Shown: positions 31,224 to 50,695 of the stretch, in pieces
How the letters are laid out: each line of letters starts with the position of its first letter
Numbering within the stretch: the stretch's first letter is position 1
From: Cystobacter ferrugineus
Lineage (GTDB): Bacteria > Myxococcota > Myxococcia > Myxococcales > Myxococcaceae
Direction: 5' to 3'
DNA length: 64,000 nt
Assembly (NCBI RefSeq): GCF_001887355.1
Contig: NZ_MPIN01000016.1
Span: 62,842 to 126,841, forward strand
Position numbers and translations under genes: made by a program
The notes under the pieces: generated by a model
What the model saw: only the letters and a program-made list of their open reading frames with translations
Databases searched by the model: none
What the model was told of the DNA's origin: nothing

Positions 31224-32609
31224 ATGGAACAGAACGGGTCGACCCTGAAGCCGAGCGGGATTCTGGGTGACAAGCACGCCGCCGAGGAGCGCGTCCCGGG
31301 TCTGCTGCGGCTGTTCGCCGCGGGGACGGCGATGGCGGTGGCCCTGCCGTTGAAGGACGGGGAGCTGGAGCTGGGACGAGGATCCCCCGTGCTGGGCGAG
31401 GCGCAGGATCCCCGGATGTCCCGCCGCCACGCGCGGATCAAGTTCGACGGGCGGCGCTTCTGGGTGACCGATCTCGGCAGCCAGAATGGCACCGTCGTGG
31501 ATGGGGAGCCCACCCCCGCCCAGTCGCCTCGCGAGGCACAGCGCGTCATCCGCATGGGGGACTCGCTCTTCGTGCCCTGCGCGGATGTGGGGCCACTGGA
31601 GCGGCGCGGGGTGGTGACACGGGAAGGCTTCATCCGGGGCCCGGCCATGCAGGGGCTGCTCGAGGAGGTCACCCGCGCGGCCCGGCTCGGCTTCCCGCTG
31701 CACATCCATGGCGAGAGCGGCACGGGCAAGGAGGGCGTGGCACGCGCCTTCCACGAGAGCGGGCCGCGGAGCGCGGGGCCCTTCGTGGCGGTCAACTGCG
31801 CGGCCATTCCCCAGAGCATCGCCGAGCGGCTGCTCTTCGGCGCCAGGCGCGGCGCCTACTCGGGGGCCGATGCCGATGCCCCGGGCTACCTCCAGACGGC
31901 GGATGGCGGAACGCTCTTCCTCGACGAGGTGGTGGAGCTGGACCTGGCGGTGCAGGCCAAGCTGCTGCGGGCGCTCGAGACCAAGGAGGTCCTCGCCCTG
32001 GGCGCGGCGAAGCCGAAGACGGTGGACATCCACATCTGCTCCGCGAGCAACAGGGATCTGCGCGCGCTCGTGGCCGCCGGCAAGCTGCGCGAGGATCTGT
32101 ACTTCCGCATCGGCCGCCCGGAGGTGACGTTGCCGCCCCTGCGCCAGCGCCCCGAGGAGCTGGCCCTGCTGCTCCAGCGCGAGGTGCGGCAGGTGGCCCC
32201 CACGCTGGGGCTGCACCTCTCCTTCGTGGAGGCGTGTCTGCTGCGGCCCTGGCCGGGCAACGTCCGGGAGCTGCTGGTCGAGGCCCGCGGCGCCATCCAG
32301 GCGGCGCTCATGCAGGACGCCCCGCGCGTGGAGGCTCGCCACCTGAGTCCGAAAGCCGGCACCGCGTTCGGCACCGGGGCCGCGCCGCCTCCGCCGTCCA
32401 CGCCGCCACCGGAGCTACCCGAGCCCCCGCGTGAGGCCCCCTCTCGGGCCCGGCCGCTCGATGACGACGAGCGGACCCGCATCGAGCAGGCCCTGCGGCA
32501 ACACGGGGGCAACGTGGCCGCCACGGCCCGGGCACTCGGCATGCACCGCACCCAGTTGCGGCGTTTGCTCGAGCGCCATGCGATCGCCGCTCCTCCCGAC
32601 AGCGAATAG
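31224..32609 (+). CDS. FHA-domain sigma-54 enhancer-binding transcriptional activator
   Basis: 461-residue activator. The FHA domain (about 40-115) has GRGS, SRRHARIKF and DLGSQNGTVVDG for phosphothreonine binding, so its input is probably a Ser/Thr kinase. The AAA+ domain has Walker A GESGTGKE, Walker B GTLFLDE and the arginine-finger region. The sigma-54 contact loop is GAYSGA rather than GAFTGA. A Pro-rich linker leads to a Fis-type helix-turn-helix (GGNVAATARALGMHRTQLRR). The changed loop may weaken or alter sigma-54 contact. Target genes are unknown; inverted repeats just upstream suggest autoregulation. Confidence 0.88.
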   Translation: MEQNGSTLKPSGILGDKHAAEERVPGLLRLFAAGTAMAVALPLKDGELELGRGSPVLGEAQDPRMSRRHARIKFDGRRFWVTDLGSQNGTVVDGEPTPAQSPREAQRVIRMGDSLFVPCADVGPLERRGVVTREGFIRGPAMQGLLEEVTRAARLGFPLHIHGESGTGKEGVARAFHESGPRSAGPFVAVNCAAIPQSIAERLLFGARRGAYSGADADAPGYLQTADGGTLFLDEVVELDLAVQAKLLRALETKEVLALGAAKPKTVDIHICSASNRDLRALVAAGKLREDLYFRIGRPEVTLPPLRQRPEELALLLQREVRQVAPTLGLHLSFVEACLLRPWPGNVRELLVEARGAIQAALMQDAPRVEARHLSPKAGTAFGTGAAPPPPSTPPPELPEPPREAPSRARPLDDDERTRIEQALRQHGGNVAATARALGMHRTQLRRLLERHAIAAPPDSE

Positions 32610-32965: not shown

Positions 32966-34921
<1,956 letters not shown>

Positions 34922-35024
34922 CCCGGTTCCTCCTCTTGGTTCGCTACCGACGCCCCGAGCTGGACATTCCGAATTCTGTTTCAATCCGTCAGGAGATTGC
35001 ACGCCCACCCCACGCCATTTCATG

Positions 35025-35039
35025 TGACGTCCCGCGTCA
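35025..35039. promoter_or_regulatory. Candidate enhancer site for the AcoR-like activator
   Basis: TGACGTCCCGCGTCA is a perfect inverted repeat (TGACG-N5-CGTCA) about 80 bases upstream of the -24/-12 promoter at 35120 and 104 bases from the regulator start. This is the position expected for an enhancer-binding-protein site. Confidence 0.45.
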
Positions 35040-35119
35040 TGTCGCGAAACGCTCCAACTGACTCGTCCGAGTGAACGCTTTCGCTCCAACCCGCGACACC
35101 GGCCGAGAGGAGAAAGGCC

Positions 35120-35135
35120 CGGCACACACGCTGCA
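35120..35135 (+). promoter_or_regulatory. Sigma-54 (-24/-12) promoter of the aldehyde dehydrogenase gene
   Basis: CGGCACACACGCTGCA matches the consensus TGGCAC-N5-TTGCA at 14 of the conserved positions, with the invariant GG and GC 12 bases apart (35121 and 35133). Predicted transcription start is near 35145, giving a 5' leader of about 44 bases with GGAG before the ATG at 35189. Confidence 0.75.
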
Positions 35136-37805: not shown

Positions 37806-38035
37806 GGTAGGGGCCACGAGCCTGACTGGCGGCCTGCTCATGCCCTCTGGCTCCAGGGGCGCCATCACAAATGGAACGCCACGGCTCTTTCCCTGGGACC
37901 GCACCTGGTGGTGCGTCCCATCGGAGAGAACCGCATGCGCGTGCTCCAAGGCAATGCCGTCAGGGGGAGGTTGCTCCAAGCCAAGCAAGTCCGTGGAGGC
38001 ATGCCGCGGGGTGGGGGCGGAGGGCGGGCCCCTGT

Positions 38036-38614
38036 TCAGGCACCGAACCAGCCCTTCTGGCGAGCCGCTTCGAGCCGGACTTCCAGATAGTCCCACAAGG
38101 CCGGACAGCCCGCCTTGATCGGCGGAGCGATCCGGCGCACCACGCGCTCATGGCTGACGCCATTCTCGCGCCAGCTTTGACCCGCGTTGGCGAGGTTCAG
38201 CAGGACCGGCATGGCCCGGTCCACGGCCTGGGCGAAACGGGCCTCCGGCGTGTCACCCTGTTCGAACTCCTGCCACAGCGCCAGGAATGCCTCGCCTTGC
38301 CGTGGCGGCAGCATCCCGAAAATCCGCTTCACCGCCGCCAGCTCGGCCGCCTTGCGCTCCTCCCAGCCGCCCTCGGCGTACACCAGGGTGTCGCCGGTAT
38401 CGATCTCCCCAATGTCGTGCACCAGCAGCATGCCGACCACCCGGCTGATATCGAGGGCGGTCCCGGCATGGTGCGCCAGCGAGATGGCCATCAGCGCGAT
38501 CTGCCAGCTGTGCTCCGCCGAGTTCTCATAGCGCTCGAGGCCCAGCGGACGGGTTTTGCGCGTCACTCCCTTGAGCTTGTCCAGTTCCAGAATGAACTCG
38601 ACGACCCGTTGCAT
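38036..38614 (-). CDS. HD-domain phosphohydrolase (YfbR/HDDC2-like)
   Basis: 192-residue HD protein. It has RYENSAEHSWQIALMA (first His), LLVHDIGEIDTGD (HD pair) and the later AVDRAMPVLLNL with the fourth metal ligand Asp. This arrangement is that of YfbR/HDDC2 5'-nucleotidase-like enzymes, which dephosphorylate (deoxy)nucleoside monophosphates. I chose ATG 38614 because family similarity starts at MQRVVEFILELDKLKGV. It is divergent from the C-nucleoside-like NRPS operon across a 945-base regulatory region with operator-like repeats, so a nucleotide-related link with that operon is conceivable. No terminator is evident. Confidence 0.82.
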   Translation of the reverse strand: MQRVVEFILELDKLKGVTRKTRPLGLERYENSAEHSWQIALMAISLAHHAGTALDISRVVGMLLVHDIGEIDTGDTLVYAEGGWEERKAAELAAVKRIFGMLPPRQGEAFLALWQEFEQGDTPEARFAQAVDRAMPVLLNLANAGQSWRENGVSHERVVRRIAPPIKAGCPALWDYLEVRLEAARQKGWFGA

Positions 38615-38779
38615 GTCTCCACCGTGAGAATCGACCCGATTTCCATCCACCGTTGTGCCTCCAATGACCATCTGGGCCACCCACCCTACTATGACGGCTG
38701 CCGTTGCGAGGCCGCGGGGGTGACAAGGGGCGGGTGAACGGCGGTCGCCGCATTCCTCCCGTGCACCGGACGTCCGGAT

Positions 38780-38878
38780 CGATTGACGTATCAATCGCTC
38801 CCGACTCGATTGACGTATCAATCGCTCCCGACTCGATTGACGTATCAATCGCTCCCGACTCGATTGACGTATCAATCG
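38780..38878. repeat. Four tandem 27-bp repeats carrying operator-like palindromes
   Basis: The unit CGATTGACGTATCAATCG recurs at 38780, 38807, 38834 and 38861, separated by the identical 9-base spacer CTCCCGACT, so the period is exactly 27 bp. Each unit has a 7-bp inverted repeat (CGATTGA and TCAATCG) around CGTA. The copies are identical, consistent with iterated binding sites for a dimeric regulator, or recent repeat expansion. Confidence 0.85.
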
Positions 38879-38906
38879 CTCCTGGCCGTTCTCGGGAGGG
38901 GCGGTT

Positions 38907-38916
38907 GTAACGTTAC
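38907..38916. promoter_or_regulatory. GTAACGTTAC palindrome
   Basis: Perfect 10-bp palindrome 28 bases after the last repeat copy. It could be a second operator type. Confidence 0.35.
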
Positions 38917-39341
38917 GACGGTGTTGTCCGGCGGACCCCGCGGCCTGATGCCTATCCGCCATGAGTGAAAAAGTGATAAACACGGCAAAATAAGTAAAAC
39001 GTATCTTCCCTGTTCTGAACATGCTATGGTAGTCATGGATGGCAGCCGCATTCTGCTGAGACGAAAGAGTAGAGATGGGACCGTAATTCACACCGGACAC
39101 AAGCGAGGCCGCCAGCGGCACCTCCTGAAGGAATGGGCTGGAGTACTCGTTGGTGGACGGAAGTAGCTGTCTGGGTTGTCTGGTACGGACTGGTGCTCGG
39201 GCCATTCTGGCCGCCGCTGCACTCCGTGCTGAACTGGCCTGTCAGCATGACGGGCTCCACGTACACCAAGCCGAATGAGGCACGAGGCCATGCGTGGGCC
39301 CGTCGTGCGCGCGGCTCCATTCAGCCAGCGACACGAGAGTG

Positions 39342-39397
39342 TCACTCGAGTGATACGGATATGAACTATTGACAAAAACACTCTCCGTATGAGAGTG
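39342..39397. promoter_or_regulatory. Paired palindromes and TTGACA hexamer upstream of the NRPS gene
   Basis: TCACTCGAGTGA (39342-39353) is a perfect palindrome. TTGACA (39369-39374) is followed by CACTCTCCGTATGAGAGTG (39379-39397), a 7-bp inverted repeat with a 5-base loop. The two palindromes share CACTC/GAGTG half-sites, so one regulator may bind both. No convincing -10 at 17 bases could be found, so the hexamer is only a candidate -35. Confidence 0.4.
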
Positions 39398-39558
39398 AGG
39401 CAAAAAAACAAATTCGGGCGGTTTTCGTAAGGAGCGCCAATGGCAAGCGCGCCGCCCGAGTATTAAGTCCGGGCACCTGACGTCCGTTCATCGCGCCAAG
39501 GTCATTGGGCCGCGCTGTGATCGGTTCGTGCCCGCTTCTTGGATCTGAGGACTTCGAA

Positions 39559-42500
39559 ATGACGGGTAGCGCTTTGTCCATGAAGAAAGACGTCCTGGCG
39601 ACCAGCTACGCTGTAAATGTCGATGGCGTATCCGATTCCCGAATCAGCGACGTCTCTTTGATCGTTCTGGATGAGAAGAACCTGATTCACAAGAAGTTCA
39701 ACGAAACGAAGCGCGAATTTCCCATGGACAAATGCCTGCCCGATCTACTCTGGGAGCAGGTGCGGGCACAGCCCCATGGCGTGGCGGTTGTCTATGAGAA
39801 TGAAGTTCTCACCTACCGCGAGCTCGCGGAGCGCAGCTCGGAACTGGCGGTCTACCTGCAACACCTCGGCGTGGCGCTGGACGAGTGCGTCGGGATGTTC
39901 GTCGAGCCATCGATCGAATTGATGGTGGGCGCCTGGGGAATCCTGTTCTCCGGCGGAGCCTATCTGCCGCTGTCGCCGGAGTATCCCGAGGAGCGGCTGC
40001 GCTACATGATCGAGGACAGCCGCGCGAAGGTCATCTTCGCCCAGGAGGGGCTCGAGAAGCGGCTCACGGAGCTGGCGCCGCGGGGAACCCGGATCGTCAC
40101 CCTGAAGGACGCGGCGGAGTTCACCCGCTCGCGCTCGGTGCGCGGCACGCGCGAGTCCGACATCGGGCTGCGCCCGAACAACCTGGCGTACATCATCTAC
40201 ACCTCCGGCAGCACCGGCAAGCCGAAGGGAGTGATGATCGAGCATCGCAGCATCGTCAATCAGATGCACTGGCTGAAGACCGTCTACAAGCTGAACCATG
40301 AGAAGGTCGTTCTCCAGAAGACCCCCATGAGTTTCGATGCGGCGCAATGGGAGATCCTGGCTCCCAGCTCCGGCAGCAAGGTCGTCATGGGCGCCCCTGG
40401 GGTGTACCGAGACCCCGGCAGGCTGATCGAGACCATCGCCCGGCACGGGGTGACCACGCTGCAGTGCGTGCCGACGTTGCTGCAAGCCCTTCTGGACACC
40501 GAGGAGCTTCACCACTGCAAGTCGCTCACGCAGATCTTCAGCGGAGGGGAGGCCCTGACGAGGACGCTCGCGCGTCAGTGCCTCAAGACGATGCCGGGGT
40601 GCGATCTGGTCAATCTCTACGGGCCCACCGAGTGCACCATCAATTCGTCCGCCTTCACCGTCGACCAGGCCACCGTCAAGGAGGGTCCGAATACGATCTC
40701 GATCGGTAGGCCCGTGCACAACACGCAGTACTACATTCTCGACCCGCACCGCGCGCCGGTGGGCGTGGGGGAGATCGGCGAGCTGTTCATCGGTGGAGAC
40801 CAGCTCGCGCGAGGCTACCTGCACCGTCCGGACCTGACTGCGGACAGGTTCATCGACAACCCGTTCAGCACGGACCCTCGGAACGCCAGGCTGTACAAGA
40901 CCGGTGACCTGGCCTTCTGGAACCCCGATGGCTCCGTCCAGTTCGCTGGCCGGACGGACAACCAGGTGAAGCTGCGCGGCTTCCGCGTCGAGTTGGACGA
41001 GATCAAGGTGGCCATCGAGACCCATGACTGGGTCAAGAACGCGGCGGTCATCGTCAAGAAGGACCCCCACACCGGCTTCCAGAACCTGATCTCCTTCATC
41101 GAGCTGAACCCGAAGGAAGCAGCGCTGATGGATCAGGGCAATCATGGTGCCCACCACCAGTCGAAGAAAAGCAAGCTCCAGGTCAAGGCGCAGCTGTCGA
41201 ACATGGGATGCCGGGACGTCGAGGAGCTGCACGGCAAGCAGGTGGTCGACCTCCCCGGCAAGACGCCCACCGAGGAGCAGCGGCGCCTGGTGTTCGCGCG
41301 CAAGACGTACCGGTTCTACGAGGGCGGAGAAGTCACGCGGGAAGACCTCCTGCGGCTGCTCGCCGGGCGGGTCTCGGGCACGGTTTCCCGTGGCCTGGAC
41401 ACGCTGAGCTTCGCCGAACTCGGAGAACTCTTGAGGTACTTCGGACAGTACCTCAGTGAGGAACGGCTGCTGCCGAAGTACGGCTATGCGTCACCCGGGG
41501 CGCTGTGCGCGACGCAGATGTACTTCGAGCTGGACAACGTGGGGGGCCTGAAGCCGGGGTACTACTACTACCACCCCGTGCACCACCAGTTGTTCCTGAT
41601 CCGGGAGAAGGCCGGGCAGGCCGCGGCACAGGTCAAGATCCACTTCATGGGGAAGAAGCGGGCCATCCAGCCCGTCTACAAGAACAACATCCAGGAGGTC
41701 CTCAAGATCGAAACCGGCCACATGGTCGGTCTGTTCGAGAAGGTCCTCCCCCACTACGGGCTGGGCATCCGGGATCTCGAGTACGCGCCCACCACGAGGG
41801 AGCATCTGGAGTGCGCTGACGAGGACTACTACCTCGGTACGTTCGAGCTCGTCCCGTATGCGGGAACACAGCCGGACGACTCGCTGGAGATCTACGTCCA
41901 GGCCCACCCTGGGAGGATCTCCGACCTGCCGGCGGGCCAGTACCAATACAAGGACGGTGACCTGGAGAGGATCTCGGATGAGCTCGTCCTGAAGAAGCAC
42001 GTGATCGCCATCAACCAGCGGGTCTACGAGGACGCGAGCTTCGGGATCACGGTGATCAGCAGGACCCGCGAGGACTGGATGCGCTACGTCGAGCTCGGCA
42101 GGAAGCTCCAGCACCTGCAGATGAACGACCTCCACTTCGGGTTCATGTCCTCGGGGTATAGCTCCAAGAGCGGCAATGATCTGCCGTCGGCCAAGCGGAT
42201 GGAGAGCATCCTGAGGGCCTGCGGCCGGGAGTCGGGGCCTTCCTACTTCTTCGTCGGTGGCCGCGTCAGCCAGGAGCAGATGCTCAGCGAGGGAATGAAG
42301 GAAGACTCCGTCCACATGAAGGGCCCTGCGGAGCTGATCAAGGACGACCTGGTCAACTTCCTGCCCGACTACATGGTGCCCAACCGGGTCATCGTCCTGG
42401 ACAAGATGCCCCTCACCGCCAACGGGAAGATCGACTTCAAGGCGTTGGAGAAGACGAATGTGGAGTTCGTCGAGCGGCCGTTCGTCGCGCCGCGGACGGC

Positions 42501-43536
42501 GACCGAGGAGCGGATCGGCGCCCTCTGGATGAAGGAGATGAAGCGGGACAGCGTCTCCGTACAGGACGACTTCTTCGAGGCCGGGGGCAACTCGCTCATC
42601 GCGGTCGCACTCATCAACAAGATCAACAAGGAGTTCCGGACCTCGCTCCCCTTGCAGGTCGTGTTCGAGTGCCCGACCATCGAGAAGCTCGCGCTCAAGG
42701 TCGATGGCGGAAAGGCCGAGCCGTCCTCGCGTCTGGTGCGGTTGCAGGGCGAGGGCACGAAGAAGCCCATCTATTGCTGGCCTGGCCTCGGCGGCTACAC
42801 CATGAACCTGAGGCTGCTCGCCAGCAAGATGGGAGCGGACCGGCCTTTCTATGGAGTGCAGGCGCACGGCATCAACAAGGACGAGACGCCTTATTCCACC
42901 ATCAAGGAGATGGCCGCGGAGGACGTCAAGCTCATCAAGCGGCTTCAGCCGGTGGGTCCCTACACGCTCTGGGGATACTCCTTCGGCGCGCGGGTGGCCT
43001 TCGAAACCGCCTATCAGCTCGAGCAGGCCGGTGAGCGGGTGGAGCACCTGTTCCTGATCGCTCCGGGGTCGCCCAAGGTCCGGACACAGGACGCGTCGAT
43101 CCACGGCAACGAGCCCGCCTATACGAACAAGGCCTATGTGACGATCCTCTTCTCGGTGTTCGCGGGGAGCATCACGGATCCCGCGCTCGACGAGTGCTTG
43201 AAGGTCGCCAAGGACGAGGAGAGCTTCGCGGCGTTCATCAGCAGAAGGCTCGAGAACCTCGACCCGGACCTGGTGAAGCGGATCATCAAGATCGTGGCGC
43301 AGACCTATGAGTTCAAGTATGAGTTCCGCGAGTTGGCGGAGCGGAAGCTCAGCGCGCCGATCACCATCTTCAAGGCCCAGGGGGACGACTACTCATTCAT
43401 CGAGAACCAGAGTGGGTATTCGGCCACGGCTCCGGTCGTCATGGACCTCGAGGCCGATCACTACGGAATGCTCAAGGAGCCGAGCATCGGCGAGCTCCTG
43501 AAGATGATTCGCTACCGCCTTCGGACCGAGGGGTAG
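39559..43536 (+). CDS. indC: Single-module NRPS A-Ox-PCP-TE, indigoidine/minimycin synthetase type
   Basis: 1325-residue synthetase. Adenylation motifs: A3 IYTSGSTGKPKG (about 211-222), A5 NLYGPTEC, A7/A8 YKTGDLAFWNPDG to LRGFRVELDE. An FMN-dependent oxidase-like domain (about 570-850, starting EEQRRLVFARKTYRFYEGG) is inserted between A8 and A10 (TANGKIDF, about 954), the arrangement unique to indigoidine synthetases. The carrier Ser is 1012 (FFEAGGNSL), and the thioesterase has GYSFG (Ser 1141) and a C-terminal His near 1301. The expected chemistry is cyclisation and oxidation of L-glutamine. ATG 39559 has GAGG 8 bases upstream; an alternative start lies at 39505. It heads an eight-gene operon. 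Confidence 0.9.
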   Translation: MTGSALSMKKDVLATSYAVNVDGVSDSRISDVSLIVLDEKNLIHKKFNETKREFPMDKCLPDLLWEQVRAQPHGVAVVYENEVLTYRELAERSSELAVYLQHLGVALDECVGMFVEPSIELMVGAWGILFSGGAYLPLSPEYPEERLRYMIEDSRAKVIFAQEGLEKRLTELAPRGTRIVTLKDAAEFTRSRSVRGTRESDIGLRPNNLAYIIYTSGSTGKPKGVMIEHRSIVNQMHWLKTVYKLNHEKVVLQKTPMSFDAAQWEILAPSSGSKVVMGAPGVYRDPGRLIETIARHGVTTLQCVPTLLQALLDTEELHHCKSLTQIFSGGEALTRTLARQCLKTMPGCDLVNLYGPTECTINSSAFTVDQATVKEGPNTISIGRPVHNTQYYILDPHRAPVGVGEIGELFIGGDQLARGYLHRPDLTADRFIDNPFSTDPRNARLYKTGDLAFWNPDGSVQFAGRTDNQVKLRGFRVELDEIKVAIETHDWVKNAAVIVKKDPHTGFQNLISFIELNPKEAALMDQGNHGAHHQSKKSKLQVKAQLSNMGCRDVEELHGKQVVDLPGKTPTEEQRRLVFARKTYRFYEGGEVTREDLLRLLAGRVSGTVSRGLDTLSFAELGELLRYFGQYLSEERLLPKYGYASPGALCATQMYFELDNVGGLKPGYYYYHPVHHQLFLIREKAGQAAAQVKIHFMGKKRAIQPVYKNNIQEVLKIETGHMVGLFEKVLPHYGLGIRDLEYAPTTREHLECADEDYYLGTFELVPYAGTQPDDSLEIYVQAHPGRISDLPAGQYQYKDGDLERISDELVLKKHVIAINQRVYEDASFGITVISRTREDWMRYVELGRKLQHLQMNDLHFGFMSSGYSSKSGNDLPSAKRMESILRACGRESGPSYFFVGGRVSQEQMLSEGMKEDSVHMKGPAELIKDDLVNFLPDYMVPNRVIVLDKMPLTANGKIDFKALEKTNVEFVERPFVAPRTATEERIGALWMKEMKRDSVSVQDDFFEAGGNSLIAVALINKINKEFRTSLPLQVVFECPTIEKLALKVDGGKAEPSSRLVRLQGEGTKKPIYCWPGLGGYTMNLRLLASKMGADRPFYGVQAHGINKDETPYSTIKEMAAEDVKLIKRLQPVGPYTLWGYSFGARVAFETAYQLEQAGERVEHLFLIAPGSPKVRTQDASIHGNEPAYTNKAYVTILFSVFAGSITDPALDECLKVAKDEESFAAFISRRLENLDPDLVKRIIKIVAQTYEFKYEFRELAERKLSAPITIFKAQGDDYSFIENQSGYSATAPVVMDLEADHYGMLKEPSIGELLKMIRYRLRTEG

Positions 43537-43564: not shown

Positions 43565-43789
43565 ATGCCGCACGTCAACATCAAGTACTTCCCCACTCCG
43601 CTCAGTGAGCAGCAGCAGTCCGAGTTGGTCGCGGCGGTCACCCAGGCGGTCAAGAGCGCGCTCAAGTGCGACGAAGGGGTCATTTCGATCGCGCTCGAGC
43701 CCGTGGAAAAGGATGCCTGGAATGAACGGGTCTATGTTCCGGAGATCGTGAAGCGCAAGGAGCTGTTGCGCAAGACGCCCAATTACTGA
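43565..43789 (+). CDS. 4-oxalocrotonate tautomerase-like protein
   Basis: 74-residue tautomerase-superfamily protein. Mature Pro 1 after Met ([10 protein letters not shown]) is the catalytic base and the length fits a 4-OT subunit, which usually acts as a hexamer. The RBS AAGGAGG is excellent. It lies 28 bases after the NRPS stop. It is not among the known core genes as I recall them; it could tautomerise the pyridinedione-type NRPS product before glycosidation. That role is inference. Confidence 0.8.
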
Positions 43790-44766: not shown

Positions 44767-44790
44767 GACCCTGGACCCCAAGAGGCCGTG

Positions 44791-45468
44791 ATGACACACG
44801 TCGTTATCTTTGACCTGGATGGAACGTTGGTGGACACCCCCCGCGCGATCGTCGAGACGTTCACGGCGGCGTTCGCGTCCATGGGGGTCCAGGCCCAGAA
44901 TGCCTCGGCCATCCGGGCGACCATCGGGCTTCCACTCGAGCGGGCGTTCAGCAAGCTCCTGGGCGTTCCGCCCGAGGACGCCCTGGTGGCCCAGGGCGTG
45001 AAGCAGTACCAGGCCTTCTTCAAGGAGCTCATCCTGCCGAAGGCGGGACAGCTGCTCTTCCCCGGGGTAGCGGAGGGGCTGGTCACCTTGCGCGCCCAGG
45101 GCTTCTCCCTGGCCGTGGCGACGAGCAAGTTCTACGCGAGCGCCGACGCCTTGTTGAAGGCGGCTGGGCTTCGTGACCACTTCCACGTGGTGGTCGGCGC
45201 GGATCAGGTGAAGCAGCCGAAGCCGCATCCCGAAATGGGTCAGTTGATCCTCCAGACGCTGGGAATACCCGCCGAGCGCGCGGTGATGGTCGGAGATACG
45301 ACCCATGACCTGCAGATGGCCAAGGCCGCCGGAATGCGCTCGGTCGCCGTGACCTACGGCGTGCACAGCGTGCAGGAGCTGAAATCCGCCGGTCCGACCT
45401 GGATCGCCGGGTCCTTCGATGATGTGCTCAAGTGCGTCCAGACGGAGAATGGAGGCTGGCGTTCATGA
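44791..45468 (+). CDS. indB: HAD-family phosphatase (indB/minC-N-like)
   Basis: 225-residue HAD subfamily IA phosphatase with motif I VIFDLDGTLVD, motif II VATSKFY and motifs III/IV KPHPEMG with MVGDTTHDLQMAKAAG. All catalytic aspartates are present. It probably removes the 5'-phosphate from the C-nucleotide. In the Streptomyces minimycin cluster this domain is the N-terminal half of MinC; here it is a separate protein. The start is ATG 44791 (AAGAGG 5 bases upstream; GTG 44788 is an alternative). Its TGA overlaps the next ATG. Confidence 0.88.
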   Translation: MTHVVIFDLDGTLVDTPRAIVETFTAAFASMGVQAQNASAIRATIGLPLERAFSKLLGVPPEDALVAQGVKQYQAFFKELILPKAGQLLFPGVAEGLVTLRAQGFSLAVATSKFYASADALLKAAGLRDHFHVVVGADQVKQPKPHPEMGQLILQTLGIPAERAVMVGDTTHDLQMAKAAGMRSVAVTYGVHSVQELKSAGPTWIAGSFDDVLKCVQTENGGWRS

Positions 45469-45935
45469 TCGGTCGTTCGAAGGACTGGCTGTTGGCGATT
45501 GGAGGAGGTGCACTCCTCGCGTTGATGATCAACTACAACAGCCTCCTGGCGAAGCACACCACGCCGATGTTCGCCTCCTGGGTGGCGCACGGCCTGGGCG
45601 CGGTTGCGGCGCTCGCCCTCGTCGTCCTGTATTCGCGGGTCTTCCGCTCCGCGGACAAGGCGGGGGATGCGCGGCGTGAGAAGATACCCCTGTGGTTCTA
45701 TCTGGGGGGGATTCCCGGTACGTTCACGGTGATCCTGGCCGCGGTCACGGTGAACAGCAGCCTGTCGCTGTCCGGCACCATCGCGCTCATGCTGCTCGGG
45801 CAGGTGCTCTTCGGAATCGTGTCGGACCACTTCGGGCTGTTTCGCACCCCCAAGCGGCGTACCGTCCCCGCGGACATCCTCGGTGCGCTCTGTGTCCTCA
45901 CGGGAAGCGCGCTCATCATCTTTGGCAGGGCGTAA
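45465..45935 (+). CDS. Small EamA/DUF606 (YdcZ-like) membrane transporter subunit A
   Basis: 156-residue membrane protein with about five hydrophobic segments (DWLLAIGGGALLALMINYNSLLA, GLGAVAALALVVLYSRV, IPGTFTVILAAVTVN, IALMLLGQVLFGI, ILGALCVLTGSALIIFG). The pattern matches YdcZ/DUF606 members of the drug/metabolite transporter superfamily, which often occur as adjacent pairs. Its ATG overlaps the phosphatase stop (ATGA), implying coupled translation. With the next gene it may export the C-nucleoside or its precursor. Confidence 0.75.
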   Translation: MIGRSKDWLLAIGGGALLALMINYNSLLAKHTTPMFASWVAHGLGAVAALALVVLYSRVFRSADKAGDARREKIPLWFYLGGIPGTFTVILAAVTVNSSLSLSGTIALMLLGQVLFGIVSDHFGLFRTPKRRTVPADILGALCVLTGSALIIFGRA

Positions 45936-45938
45936 CCG

Positions 45939-46388
45939 GTGATTGCCTACATCCTGCTCGCGTTTCTCAATGGTACGGTCATCGGCACGAGCCGAGCGAT
46001 CAACGGGCGTCTGGGTGCCGAGGTCGGCTCCTTCAAGGCCTCCCTCTGGAACCACCTCATCGGCTTCCTGTTCCTCACACCAGCACTCCTGCTGATGGGA
46101 GGTTGGAAGTTCGATGTCCTCCCCGAGGCGCCCCTGTCCGCGTATATCGGCGGATTCTTCGGAGCGCTCTTCGTGGCGGTCAACAGCTACATCTTTCCCA
46201 GGCTCGGCGCGATGAACGCCGTCCTTCTGGTGATCAGCGGCCAGATGATCACCGCTGTGTTGATCGATTACCGGAACCAGGGTGTGCCGCCCACGGCCAT
46301 CCGGTGTCTGGGCGTCATCATCGTGTTACTGGGCGTCTACCTGACCAGGGTGTCGAGCGCCTCTCGCGCCAAGGACAAGTCACCATGA
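45939..46388 (+). CDS. Small EamA/DUF606 (YdcZ-like) membrane transporter subunit B
   Basis: 149-residue membrane protein starting at GTG 45939, 3 bases after the previous stop. It opens with AYILLAFLNGTVIGTSRAINGRLG, the YdcZ N-terminal signature with a conserved Asn/Arg, and continues with IGFLFLTPALLLMG, GGFFGALFVAVNSYIFPRLG and VIIVLLGVYLTRV. It pairs with the preceding gene, as DUF606 proteins commonly do, and would take the place of the MinT exporter of the Streptomyces cluster. Its stop overlaps the next ATG (ATGA). Confidence 0.75.
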   Translation: MIAYILLAFLNGTVIGTSRAINGRLGAEVGSFKASLWNHLIGFLFLTPALLLMGGWKFDVLPEAPLSAYIGGFFGALFVAVNSYIFPRLGAMNAVLLVISGQMITAVLIDYRNQGVPPTAIRCLGVIIVLLGVYLTRVSSASRAKDKSP

Positions 46389-47590
46389 TCGACTCCAAAT
46401 TGATCGATGACCTGTTGAATGACAGGACACACCACATCGAGTTCAATGGGCATCTGAGCAACCATGTCAAGCATGCGGTGGTTGCCCTGAAGGGGCTCGG
46501 TGCTTCGCCGCAGAAGATCAAGTCGTACTATGACGGCTACGCGAAGCTGACGACCTATGGCTATGGCCTGGAGCCGGCGAGGCCCTCCAAGCACGTGATT
46601 TCGGAGGACAACTGGGATCGCTTCCTCGGAAAGCGAACCAGCTACTCCTCCTATTGTGAGTTCTTCGACCGGAAGGAAAAGGAGCTGGGGATGGACGAGC
46701 TCCTGCGGCGGTACATCCCGCCGCTGCTTCCTGGCTGGGTGGGAGCCTTCACACATGCCACCATCCACCTGGGATGGGCGCTGGACGTGAACCACCGCTG
46801 GATGACGATCGAAGGCCTCGCCTACATGGCCTTCTCGTATGTCTCGTGCCACCCGGAGAGGGCGTCTTCGGTCCCGCTCGACCGTTCTCGGGGCGAGCAG
46901 GCCGTGGACTCCCTGCTGCGTATCGCGGGCGTCTGGGACGAGGACGGCGAGTCGTTTCATCAGTGGGTCGAGGCGCTGGTGGGAGACACCGCGGCCGGCC
47001 TGGCCGCAGGCATTCTTCCCGAGCTCGCGCGGTCGGGATTGCAGTTCCGGATCGCCCGGATGCTCATGGAAGGGCATCCGATGATGTACGAGACCCCGGC
47101 CTGGATCGAGGCACAGGACGTTCCCACCAGCTGGGAGCAGCTGTACTACGTGACGAGCCTGATCTACCTGGCCATGCCGGGAAACTTCGTGCTCCTCCAC
47201 CTGCTCACGTCGTTGCACGCGATGGAGCAGATCGCCCACCGGCTCCCCGAGGACCAGCACAAATACGTCATCAAGTGCTTCTGGATCGGGATGCTCGGCA
47301 TCATGTTTTCCCGTGCGAATCTTCCCCGGCGGAGGAAGCTGGCGGCGCTGCACGCGACGTACAAGGACGCGATCGACCCCGTCGAGAATCCGGCGATGCG
47401 TCAGGACTGGGCGCAGATCACCGCCCGGGCGTTCGAAGAGGAAGAGGAGCACAACCCCAAGCTGGTCTACGTGCTGCAACGGATGTGGAAGCGGACCGGG
47501 GGACGCTCGATCTACCGCGCCGCTGCCGCGCAATTCACCACCACACCGGAGCTGCCCAAGTCCTTCGAGCATCCGCCCGCGGAGGAGTAA
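46385..47590 (+). CDS. DUF4243/questin oxidase-family protein (OzmD-like)
   Basis: 401-residue protein. Family signatures are FNGHLSNHVKHAVVALKGLGA, GWVGAFTHATIHLGWA and LLHLLTSLHAMEQIA, with candidate metal ligands His 23, 27, 124, 128, 272 and 278. From memory, oxazinomycin biosynthesis uses a DUF4243 non-heme iron enzyme (OzmD) for an oxidative pyridine-to-oxazine rearrangement. The gene is freestanding here, whereas in the Streptomyces cluster the equivalent domain is fused to the phosphatase. Translation is coupled to the transporter gene by ATGA. This gene is the main reason to predict a C-nucleoside product instead of only a pigment. Confidence 0.82.
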   Translation: MIDSKLIDDLLNDRTHHIEFNGHLSNHVKHAVVALKGLGASPQKIKSYYDGYAKLTTYGYGLEPARPSKHVISEDNWDRFLGKRTSYSSYCEFFDRKEKELGMDELLRRYIPPLLPGWVGAFTHATIHLGWALDVNHRWMTIEGLAYMAFSYVSCHPERASSVPLDRSRGEQAVDSLLRIAGVWDEDGESFHQWVEALVGDTAAGLAAGILPELARSGLQFRIARMLMEGHPMMYETPAWIEAQDVPTSWEQLYYVTSLIYLAMPGNFVLLHLLTSLHAMEQIAHRLPEDQHKYVIKCFWIGMLGIMFSRANLPRRRKLAALHATYKDAIDPVENPAMRQDWAQITARAFEEEEEHNPKLVYVLQRMWKRTGGRSIYRAAAAQFTTTPELPKSFEHPPAEE

Positions 47591-47616
47591 CTCCGAGCAT
47601 TGAGAGATTCGCGACC

Positions 47617-48297
47617 ATGTCCAACACGACGACCCCATCGATTCAAGAGTATCTCGGCAAGAACGTGCACCTGCTGCCACAGACGAGGCAACTGCGAGCG
47701 TTGCACACGATCATCCGCGACCGGACCGCACGCCGGGAGGATTTCGTCTTCTACTCCAGGCGGATCATCCGCCAGTTGCTCGAAGCGGGCCTGAACTTCC
47801 TCCCGTTCGAGTCGTGGGAGGTCGAGACTCCCGTCGGAAGGAAGTACGACGGCTTGCGTTTCTCCTCGCAGATCTGCGGGGTCTCCGTCGTCCGTGCCGG
47901 AGAGAGCATGGAAGCGGAGCTGCGGGAGGTGTGCCCATCCATCCGCATTGGCAAGATCCTGATCCAGCGGGACAAGGTCACCAAGCTGCCGCGCTTGTAT
48001 TACTCGTCTCTGCCCAACGATATCGCCAAGCGCCACGTCCTGTTGATGGATCCCATGCTGGCCACGGGCGGGTCCGCGCTCGCCGCCATCCAGGTGCTGC
48101 TCGAGAGGGGTGTGCCCGAAGAGAACATCGTCTTCATCAACCTGATCACCGTGCCCGAAGGCATCTCCGCGCTCTGCAAGCGGCATCCGGCGGTGAAGAT
48201 CGTGACCTCCTCGATTGAAGAGCGTCTGAATGAAAACGCCTACATGCTGCCAGGCATCGGCGATTTTGGTGATCGGTTCTTCGGTACGGACACCTGA
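47617..48297 (+). CDS. upp: Uracil phosphoribosyltransferase (minD-like)
   Basis: 226-residue UPRT. The PRPP loop is LLMDPMLATGGSALAAI, and the uracil-binding region ends GDFGDRFFGT. It makes UMP from uracil and PRPP. In the minimycin cluster MinD (UPRT) is reported to raise the UMP pool as self-protection against the nucleoside monophosphate. The N-terminus is slightly longer than in the housekeeping enzyme. It follows the DUF4243 gene after 26 bases and ends the operon; I see no terminator. Confidence 0.9.
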   Translation: MSNTTTPSIQEYLGKNVHLLPQTRQLRALHTIIRDRTARREDFVFYSRRIIRQLLEAGLNFLPFESWEVETPVGRKYDGLRFSSQICGVSVVRAGESMEAELREVCPSIRIGKILIQRDKVTKLPRLYYSSLPNDIAKRHVLLMDPMLATGGSALAAIQVLLERGVPEENIVFINLITVPEGISALCKRHPAVKIVTSSIEERLNENAYMLPGIGDFGDRFFGTDT

Positions 48298-50670: not shown

Positions 50671-50695
50671 AAAGTAAGTGAGTCTTACTTACTTT
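50671..50695. promoter_or_regulatory. TetR-type operator between carotenoid oxygenase and its regulator
   Basis: AAAGTAAG (50671-50678) and CTTACTTT (50688-50695) form a perfect 8-bp inverted repeat with a 9-base spacer, an AT-rich island between divergent start codons. Its place and size fit a TetR operator that controls both genes. Confidence 0.7.

Follow-up and report, generated by a model that had tools for sequence, protein, structure and literature searches.

Four identical inverted repeats in tandem between an HD-domain gene and the indigoidine cluster of Cystobacter ferrugineus

Gene setting of the array

The window (the whole stretch of 64,000 nucleotides analysed here) comes from a genome of 12.05 Mb in 42 contigs. 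The block of genes with which we are concerned is as follows.

38036–38650, minus strand: HD_3-domain (YfbR-like nucleotidase) gene, divergent from indC; PF13023, E 2.2e-47 on 38036–38614
39559–43536, plus strand: indC-type indigoidine synthetase; Pfam gives an A domain, an insertion of ~400 aa, PCP and TE
43565–43789, plus strand: tautomerase gene; PF01361
43810–44766, plus strand: indA-type gene (Indigoidine_A, pseudouridine-5'-phosphate glycosidase family); PF04227, E 2.4e-109
44788–45468, plus strand: HAD hydrolase gene; PF13419

This make-up of NRPS, tautomerase, Indigoidine_A and HAD genes is that of an indigoidine cluster, with the A-(insertion)-PCP-TE NRPS, Indigoidine_A and the tautomerase all present; the HAD hydrolase gene may be the counterpart of indB. 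The NRPS is 66% identical to an NRPS of Streptomyces lavendulae, and its insertion of ~400 residues, which separates the A core from the A C-terminus, is presumably an oxidase. Translation of indC may start at ATG 39559 or ATG 39580 in a reading frame that is open from 39505, and the likely start of the HD gene is GTG 38650, preceded by GGAGG. According to PMC12766979, Melittangium and Cystobacter ferrugineus have indigoidine clusters, and the Melittangium primigenium homologue makes indigoidine in E. coli.

The distribution of the cluster is scattered, full-length relatives of the NRPS being found in 5 of 96 family genomes (own included) and its insertion region in 5 of 195 genomes of the phylum. 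In each of the five genomes compared, the HD gene is the cluster's divergent neighbour. Relatives of it also occur in genomes G017 and G031 (85% DNA identity), neither of which has a match to the insertion region, so its occurrence does not depend on the pigment cluster. Directly after the indigoidine genes, at 45692–48297, are open frames resembling a questin oxidase and a uracil phosphoribosyltransferase; relatives of these are found at the corresponding position in each of the four others, partly cut at the stretch end, and a upp gene is also present in two Streptomyces loci.

The earlier note had remarked that the cluster contains no regulator gene, and we too recognised none in the conserved block or anywhere between 35189 and 48294. 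Of those recognised farther out, the nearest are a TetR gene (50678) and two genes for sigma-54 activators (31224 and 32966). The latter two (31224–32609 and 32966–35125, one with an FHA domain) both lie to the left of aldehyde/alcohol dehydrogenase genes that adjoin the cluster. The palindrome AAAGTAAGTGAGTCTTACTTACTTT at 50671–50695, between the TetR gene and a divergent RPE65-type gene, is likely a TetR operator; the true start of the TetR gene may be further in.

Anatomy of the array

A tandem array lies between the HD gene and indC, its left end 128 bp upstream of the HD start and its right end 676 bp upstream of ATG 39559.

38779–38882, no strand: tandem array, also recovered as a family of direct repeats; period 27 bp, 3.9 exact copies, 100% match and no indels by TRF
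38780–38797, plus strand: core 1, CGATTGACGTATCAATCG, exact match
38807–38824, plus strand: core 2, exact match
38834–38851, plus strand: core 3, exact match
38861–38878, plus strand: core 4, exact match

Four exact 27-bp repeats, with an 18-bp core and identical 9-bp spacers, had been described previously, and both an exact-match search of the window and TRF confirm them. All three full spacers are identical, and only CTCC of a spacer is left past core 4. This copy number and exactness are far beyond chance, and no further copy of the core is present in the window at up to three mismatches (shuffles average 0.01). As also proposed earlier, each core is an inverted repeat: arms of 7 bp, CGATTGA and TCAATCG, flank the centre CGTA, and because this centre is not symmetric, the inverted repeat is interrupted by 4 nt and the core is not a perfect 18-bp palindrome. 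The period does correspond to about 2.6 helical turns. The array has the head-to-tail exact units of a minisatellite (VNTR), and each core has the inverted repeat TTGA-N4-TCAA of a MarR/TetR-type operator.

In 1.246 Mb of the same genome (61 stretches, including the window) five arrays have a period of 12–80, ≥2.8 copies and ≥90% match, and the array at 38779–38882 is the only one of these with palindrome arms of at least 6 in its unit. Arms of 7 bp occur in 1.0% of shuffled 27-mers from the intergenic region of the array and in 438 of 21,275 real 27-mers of the window (2.1%), so the symmetry of one unit is unusual, not extreme. Two more palindromes, CCGGACGTCCGG and GTTGTAACGTTACGAC, flank the array at 38766–38777 and 38904–38919.

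Several other identities were considered and rejected. A coding repeat is suggested by the period, a multiple of 3, and by a minus-strand frame (38036–39205) that crosses the array, but the HD gene starts at 38650 and similarity to the nearest relative on the HD side ends near 38692; given this end and the GTG start behind its GGAGG, the array is very probably non-coding. For a sigma-54 promoter with an enhancer array the best score within 38614–39600 is 8/11, while 31 places in the window score at least 9. A REP-like dispersed palindrome does not agree with a genome total of four copies, all in the array, nor a CRISPR array with three spacers that are 9 bp long and identical instead of unlike. 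Pho-box-like arrays are direct repeats of about 11 bp, and the period here is 27. A BetI-like operator was dropped; its sequence has no occurrence among the 20 of 74 papers listed.

The array region and the core in other genomes

Comparison of the HD–indC intergenic regions of the four other family genomes with the same block shows the array to be absent from all four, including that of the nearest relative, whose HD gene is 92% and NRPS 87% identical. TRF finds only weak short repeats in these regions (the best, in G003, has 2.6 copies of 18 bp at 72%), and none of their two-copy repeats is similar to the 27-bp unit. In ungapped comparison the core is matched best in G062, with 5 mismatches (7 of 100 shuffles are equally good), and with 7 mismatches in the remaining three (76–77 of 100 shuffles). 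TTGA-N4-TCAA does not occur in the 16–17 kb taken from each of the four loci. The G062 locus is alignable with the window on the HD side to ~38692, then from ~39005, and then from ~39325 onward, with no alignment around the array. As the array region is unalignable with G062 and the array is absent in four relatives, it is either young here or was lost elsewhere. According to the earlier note, the operator reading would fall if the repeat were absent from strains having the operon under the same control; it is absent at four of four loci, which weakens the reading without refuting it, as these four operons may be under another control.

We note a further inverted repeat, CACTCTCCGTATGAGAGTG at 39379–39397, just 3' of a TTGACA upstream of indC, whose arms are conserved in G062. 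The pattern ACTCTC-N5-GAGAGTG has one place in the C. ferrugineus genome and one in G062, and none in G003, G105 or G092. It is a better conserved candidate indC operator than the array.

A genome scan for the core had been proposed as a way to find a regulon. The 12-Mb genome has no other site at up to two mismatches, so no regulon is visible for the exact core, and no autoregulated regulator gene carrying a core site is present. CGATTGA-N4-TCAATCG has nine other sites, each with two mismatches. The shorter ATTGA-N4-TCAAT occurs exactly in the four array copies only; at one mismatch there are 42 more sites, compared to 17 for the reversed control. Sixteen of the 33 whose contexts were read are intergenic by a rough gene call, and no MarR or TetR gene was recognised by eye beside any of the 33. 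None of the 95 other family genomes searched contains ATTGACGTATCAAT. The core was found in no public genome or virus (0 stretches), in a search that may not have covered this genome or its near relatives. The intergenic region 38700–39000 has no match among plasmids.

Paired sites of a looser kind do occur in the family. Two TTGA-N4-TCAA sites 5–31 bp apart are present in 7 of 96 genomes, own included, at 11 places compared to 7 for the reversed control, so that their number proves little. Every matched paired core is nonetheless TTGACRYRTCAA, although the centre was left free in the search. In the six other genomes (stretches L214, L215, L217, L218, L219, L220 and L224) the tandem sites are 20–22 or 32 bp apart, near whole helical turns, unlike the 27 bp of the window array. 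In G059 and G060 the pairs are located upstream of genes for secreted proteins (DUF11 in the one that was tested). In the C. ferrugineus genome GACATGTC and TGACATGTCA precede a DUF11/OmpA gene; these three upstream regions align poorly with one another. G082 and G083 have in common three TGACRYRTCA sites beside PAAR and gp25 genes of a contractile-injection type locus, where one group of the tandem TTGACRYRTCAA sites lies. With the array copies left out, TGACRYGTCA in C. ferrugineus is intergenic at six of six sites in the 1.246 Mb, ranking first among 24 permuted half-sites, an intergenic bias that was not replicated in a held-out 0.8 Mb (1 of 3 intergenic, p 0.32). Sites between genes are L122:5824, L136:530, L158:4069, L163:16526 and L173:8784, and some are paired or have YGTCA repeats spaced by 11 bp.

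A scan for two ATTGA-N4-TCAAT sites 5–29 bp apart yielded 40 stretches in public genome contigs and none in viral contigs. In 15 of the 40 (L067, L068, L069, L075, L078, L080, L083, L090, L092, L093, L094, L096, L097, L098 and L100) one MarR-type protein family is encoded beside the pair; the Pfam check covered L098. The hosts are Catellatospora, Gulosibacter, Arthrobacter, Planotetraspora, Paractinoplanes, Micromonospora, Nonomuraea, Streptomyces and Sphaerisporangium, and the start-to-start spacing is 20–30 bp, with 27 bp in 5 of the 15. GATTGACGTGTCAATC, from the same scan, is one base off the window core, and MarR genes lie beside such sites. This actinobacterial MarR has no match in the C. 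ferrugineus genome at E 1e-5, one in G003 and two in G062 (29–34% identity). By eye, among the matches listed, luciferase-like monooxygenase genes are near many of the MarR-adjacent pairs, and some other paired-site stretches adjoin TetR-like genes. Within 500 bp, a Saprospiraceae MAG (L084) carries nine or ten sites of the ATTGAATAATCAAT type; those that are paired are separated by ~43 bp.

Possible functions of the array and known systems

We give a probability of about 0.5 to the reading that this is a lineage-specific, recently multiplied operator array for a putative dimeric regulator. One palindromic site would have arisen or arrived in this lineage, and tandem duplication would then have turned it into four identical operators. 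The regulator would bind these sites between the HD gene and the divergently oriented indigoidine operon, and its clustered binding would repress or activate one or both promoters from upstream. A regulator of this sort would most likely be of the MarR or TetR family, and transcription would be expected to respond to the array. PecS is a MarR regulator of indigoidine in Dickeya, a system to which we do not link the array.

The array is a known kind of element, and its anatomy is that expected of operator sites repeated for a dimeric regulator. The operator reading is supported by an inverted repeat in every unit of what is the sole such array in 1.246 Mb, by the position between two divergent genes of a conserved block, by the tandem TTGACRYRTCAA of six other family genomes, by the pairs of sites that adjoin a MarR-type gene in 15 of the 40 stretches, and by a core type equal to the footprinted O3204 of SCO3205 (PMC3737563). 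It is weakened by the absence of the array from all four orthologous regions, by the lack of both a second site and an actinobacterial-MarR match in the genome, by a simple scan that finds no sigma-70-like promoter in 38600–39600, and by a spacing out of phase with the 20–22 or 32 bp of the family. The spacers are also as exact as the cores, and there is thus no sign of selection on the core. Of the proposal in the earlier note, the dimeric operators are supported in that a MarR dimer binds sites of this type (PMC3737563) and such sites are found in tandem in other bacteria; a regulon of the core is not supported. Judged by comparison of sequences, function is not shown for the array, since it lacks conservation in four relatives, a second site and a recognised regulator, and its spacers are as exact as its cores.

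The main alternative, a serious one that we hold to be rather less probable than not, is a neutral palindromic minisatellite, in which replication slippage expanded a palindrome that had arisen by chance in rapidly changing intergenic sequence, and the result has no function. The equal exactness of units and spacers, surroundings that are unalignable with the nearest relative, the absence from four related loci and from any other genomic site, and the 1–2% of 27-mers in which 7-bp arms arise by chance are all consistent with this. Against it, however, no other of the five arrays in 1.246 Mb has such a palindrome, the core is one base off sites that lie beside MarR genes elsewhere, such as GATTGACGTGTCAATC, and the array sits in a divergent promoter region.

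A more specific form of the operator reading, and a sub-case of it, is that the family has an undescribed dimeric regulator reading tandem TTGACRYRTCAA upstream of secreted-protein and contractile-injection-type genes, and that a fourfold variant array put the scattered pigment cluster under its control; we think this unlikely. It is very improbable that the array works as a nucleic-acid structure, for example as hairpins in the leader transcript of either flanking gene: as RNA it folds at −39.1 kcal/mol (z −2.9, 1 of 200 shuffles as good), but folding is expected of any tandem palindrome, Rfam has no match at E 0.5 in 38000–39700, and the alignable stretches upstream of both genes fall outside the array. 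The rest of the probability goes to something other than an operator, a minisatellite or a structure.

If the array is functional, a scattered gene cluster would have been given new control by operator multiplication, caught soon after the event, and the core could serve to capture the protein that regulates a myxobacterial pigment. If it is neutral, it cautions that even a neat series of palindromes in front of a biosynthetic operon is not in itself evidence of control.

The tandem TTGACRYRTCAA pairs of the family share with the array their core class and tandem arrangement, and those inspected lie between or upstream of genes; they differ in spacing (20–22 or 32 bp) and in cores without the CGAT/ATCG flanks. 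The actinobacterial GATTGACRYGTCAATC-type pairs are likewise tandem, several of their cores are one base off the window core and 5 of 15 are spaced by 27 bp, although these have two copies and an adjacent MarR gene where the array has four copies. According to PMC3737563, the MarR dimer SCO3205 of Streptomyces coelicolor binds a TTGA-N4-TCAA-type site, and O3204 (TTGAACTCTCAA) was footprinted. Pseudopalindromes of this type and two sites in one divergent intergenic region are features in common, whereas there the regulator gene is adjacent and the two sites are unlike each other, compared to four exact in-register copies here. The boxes of CouR, a MarR protein of Rhodococcus jostii, have the same half-sites, cATTGA and TCAATg (PMC4737184), but with a 5-bp centre and as single boxes over −35 elements in a four-promoter regulon. 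In four plasmid indigoidine loci of 15.8–19.8 kb each (three from Streptomyces and one from Leisingera, with NRPS genes 52–66% identical) neither TTGA-N4-TCAA nor a relative of the HD gene was found. With the Streptomyces and myxobacterial indigoidine clusters (PMC12766979), the cluster beside the array shares its NRPS type, the separate tautomerase and Indigoidine_A, and a nearby uracil phosphoribosyltransferase.
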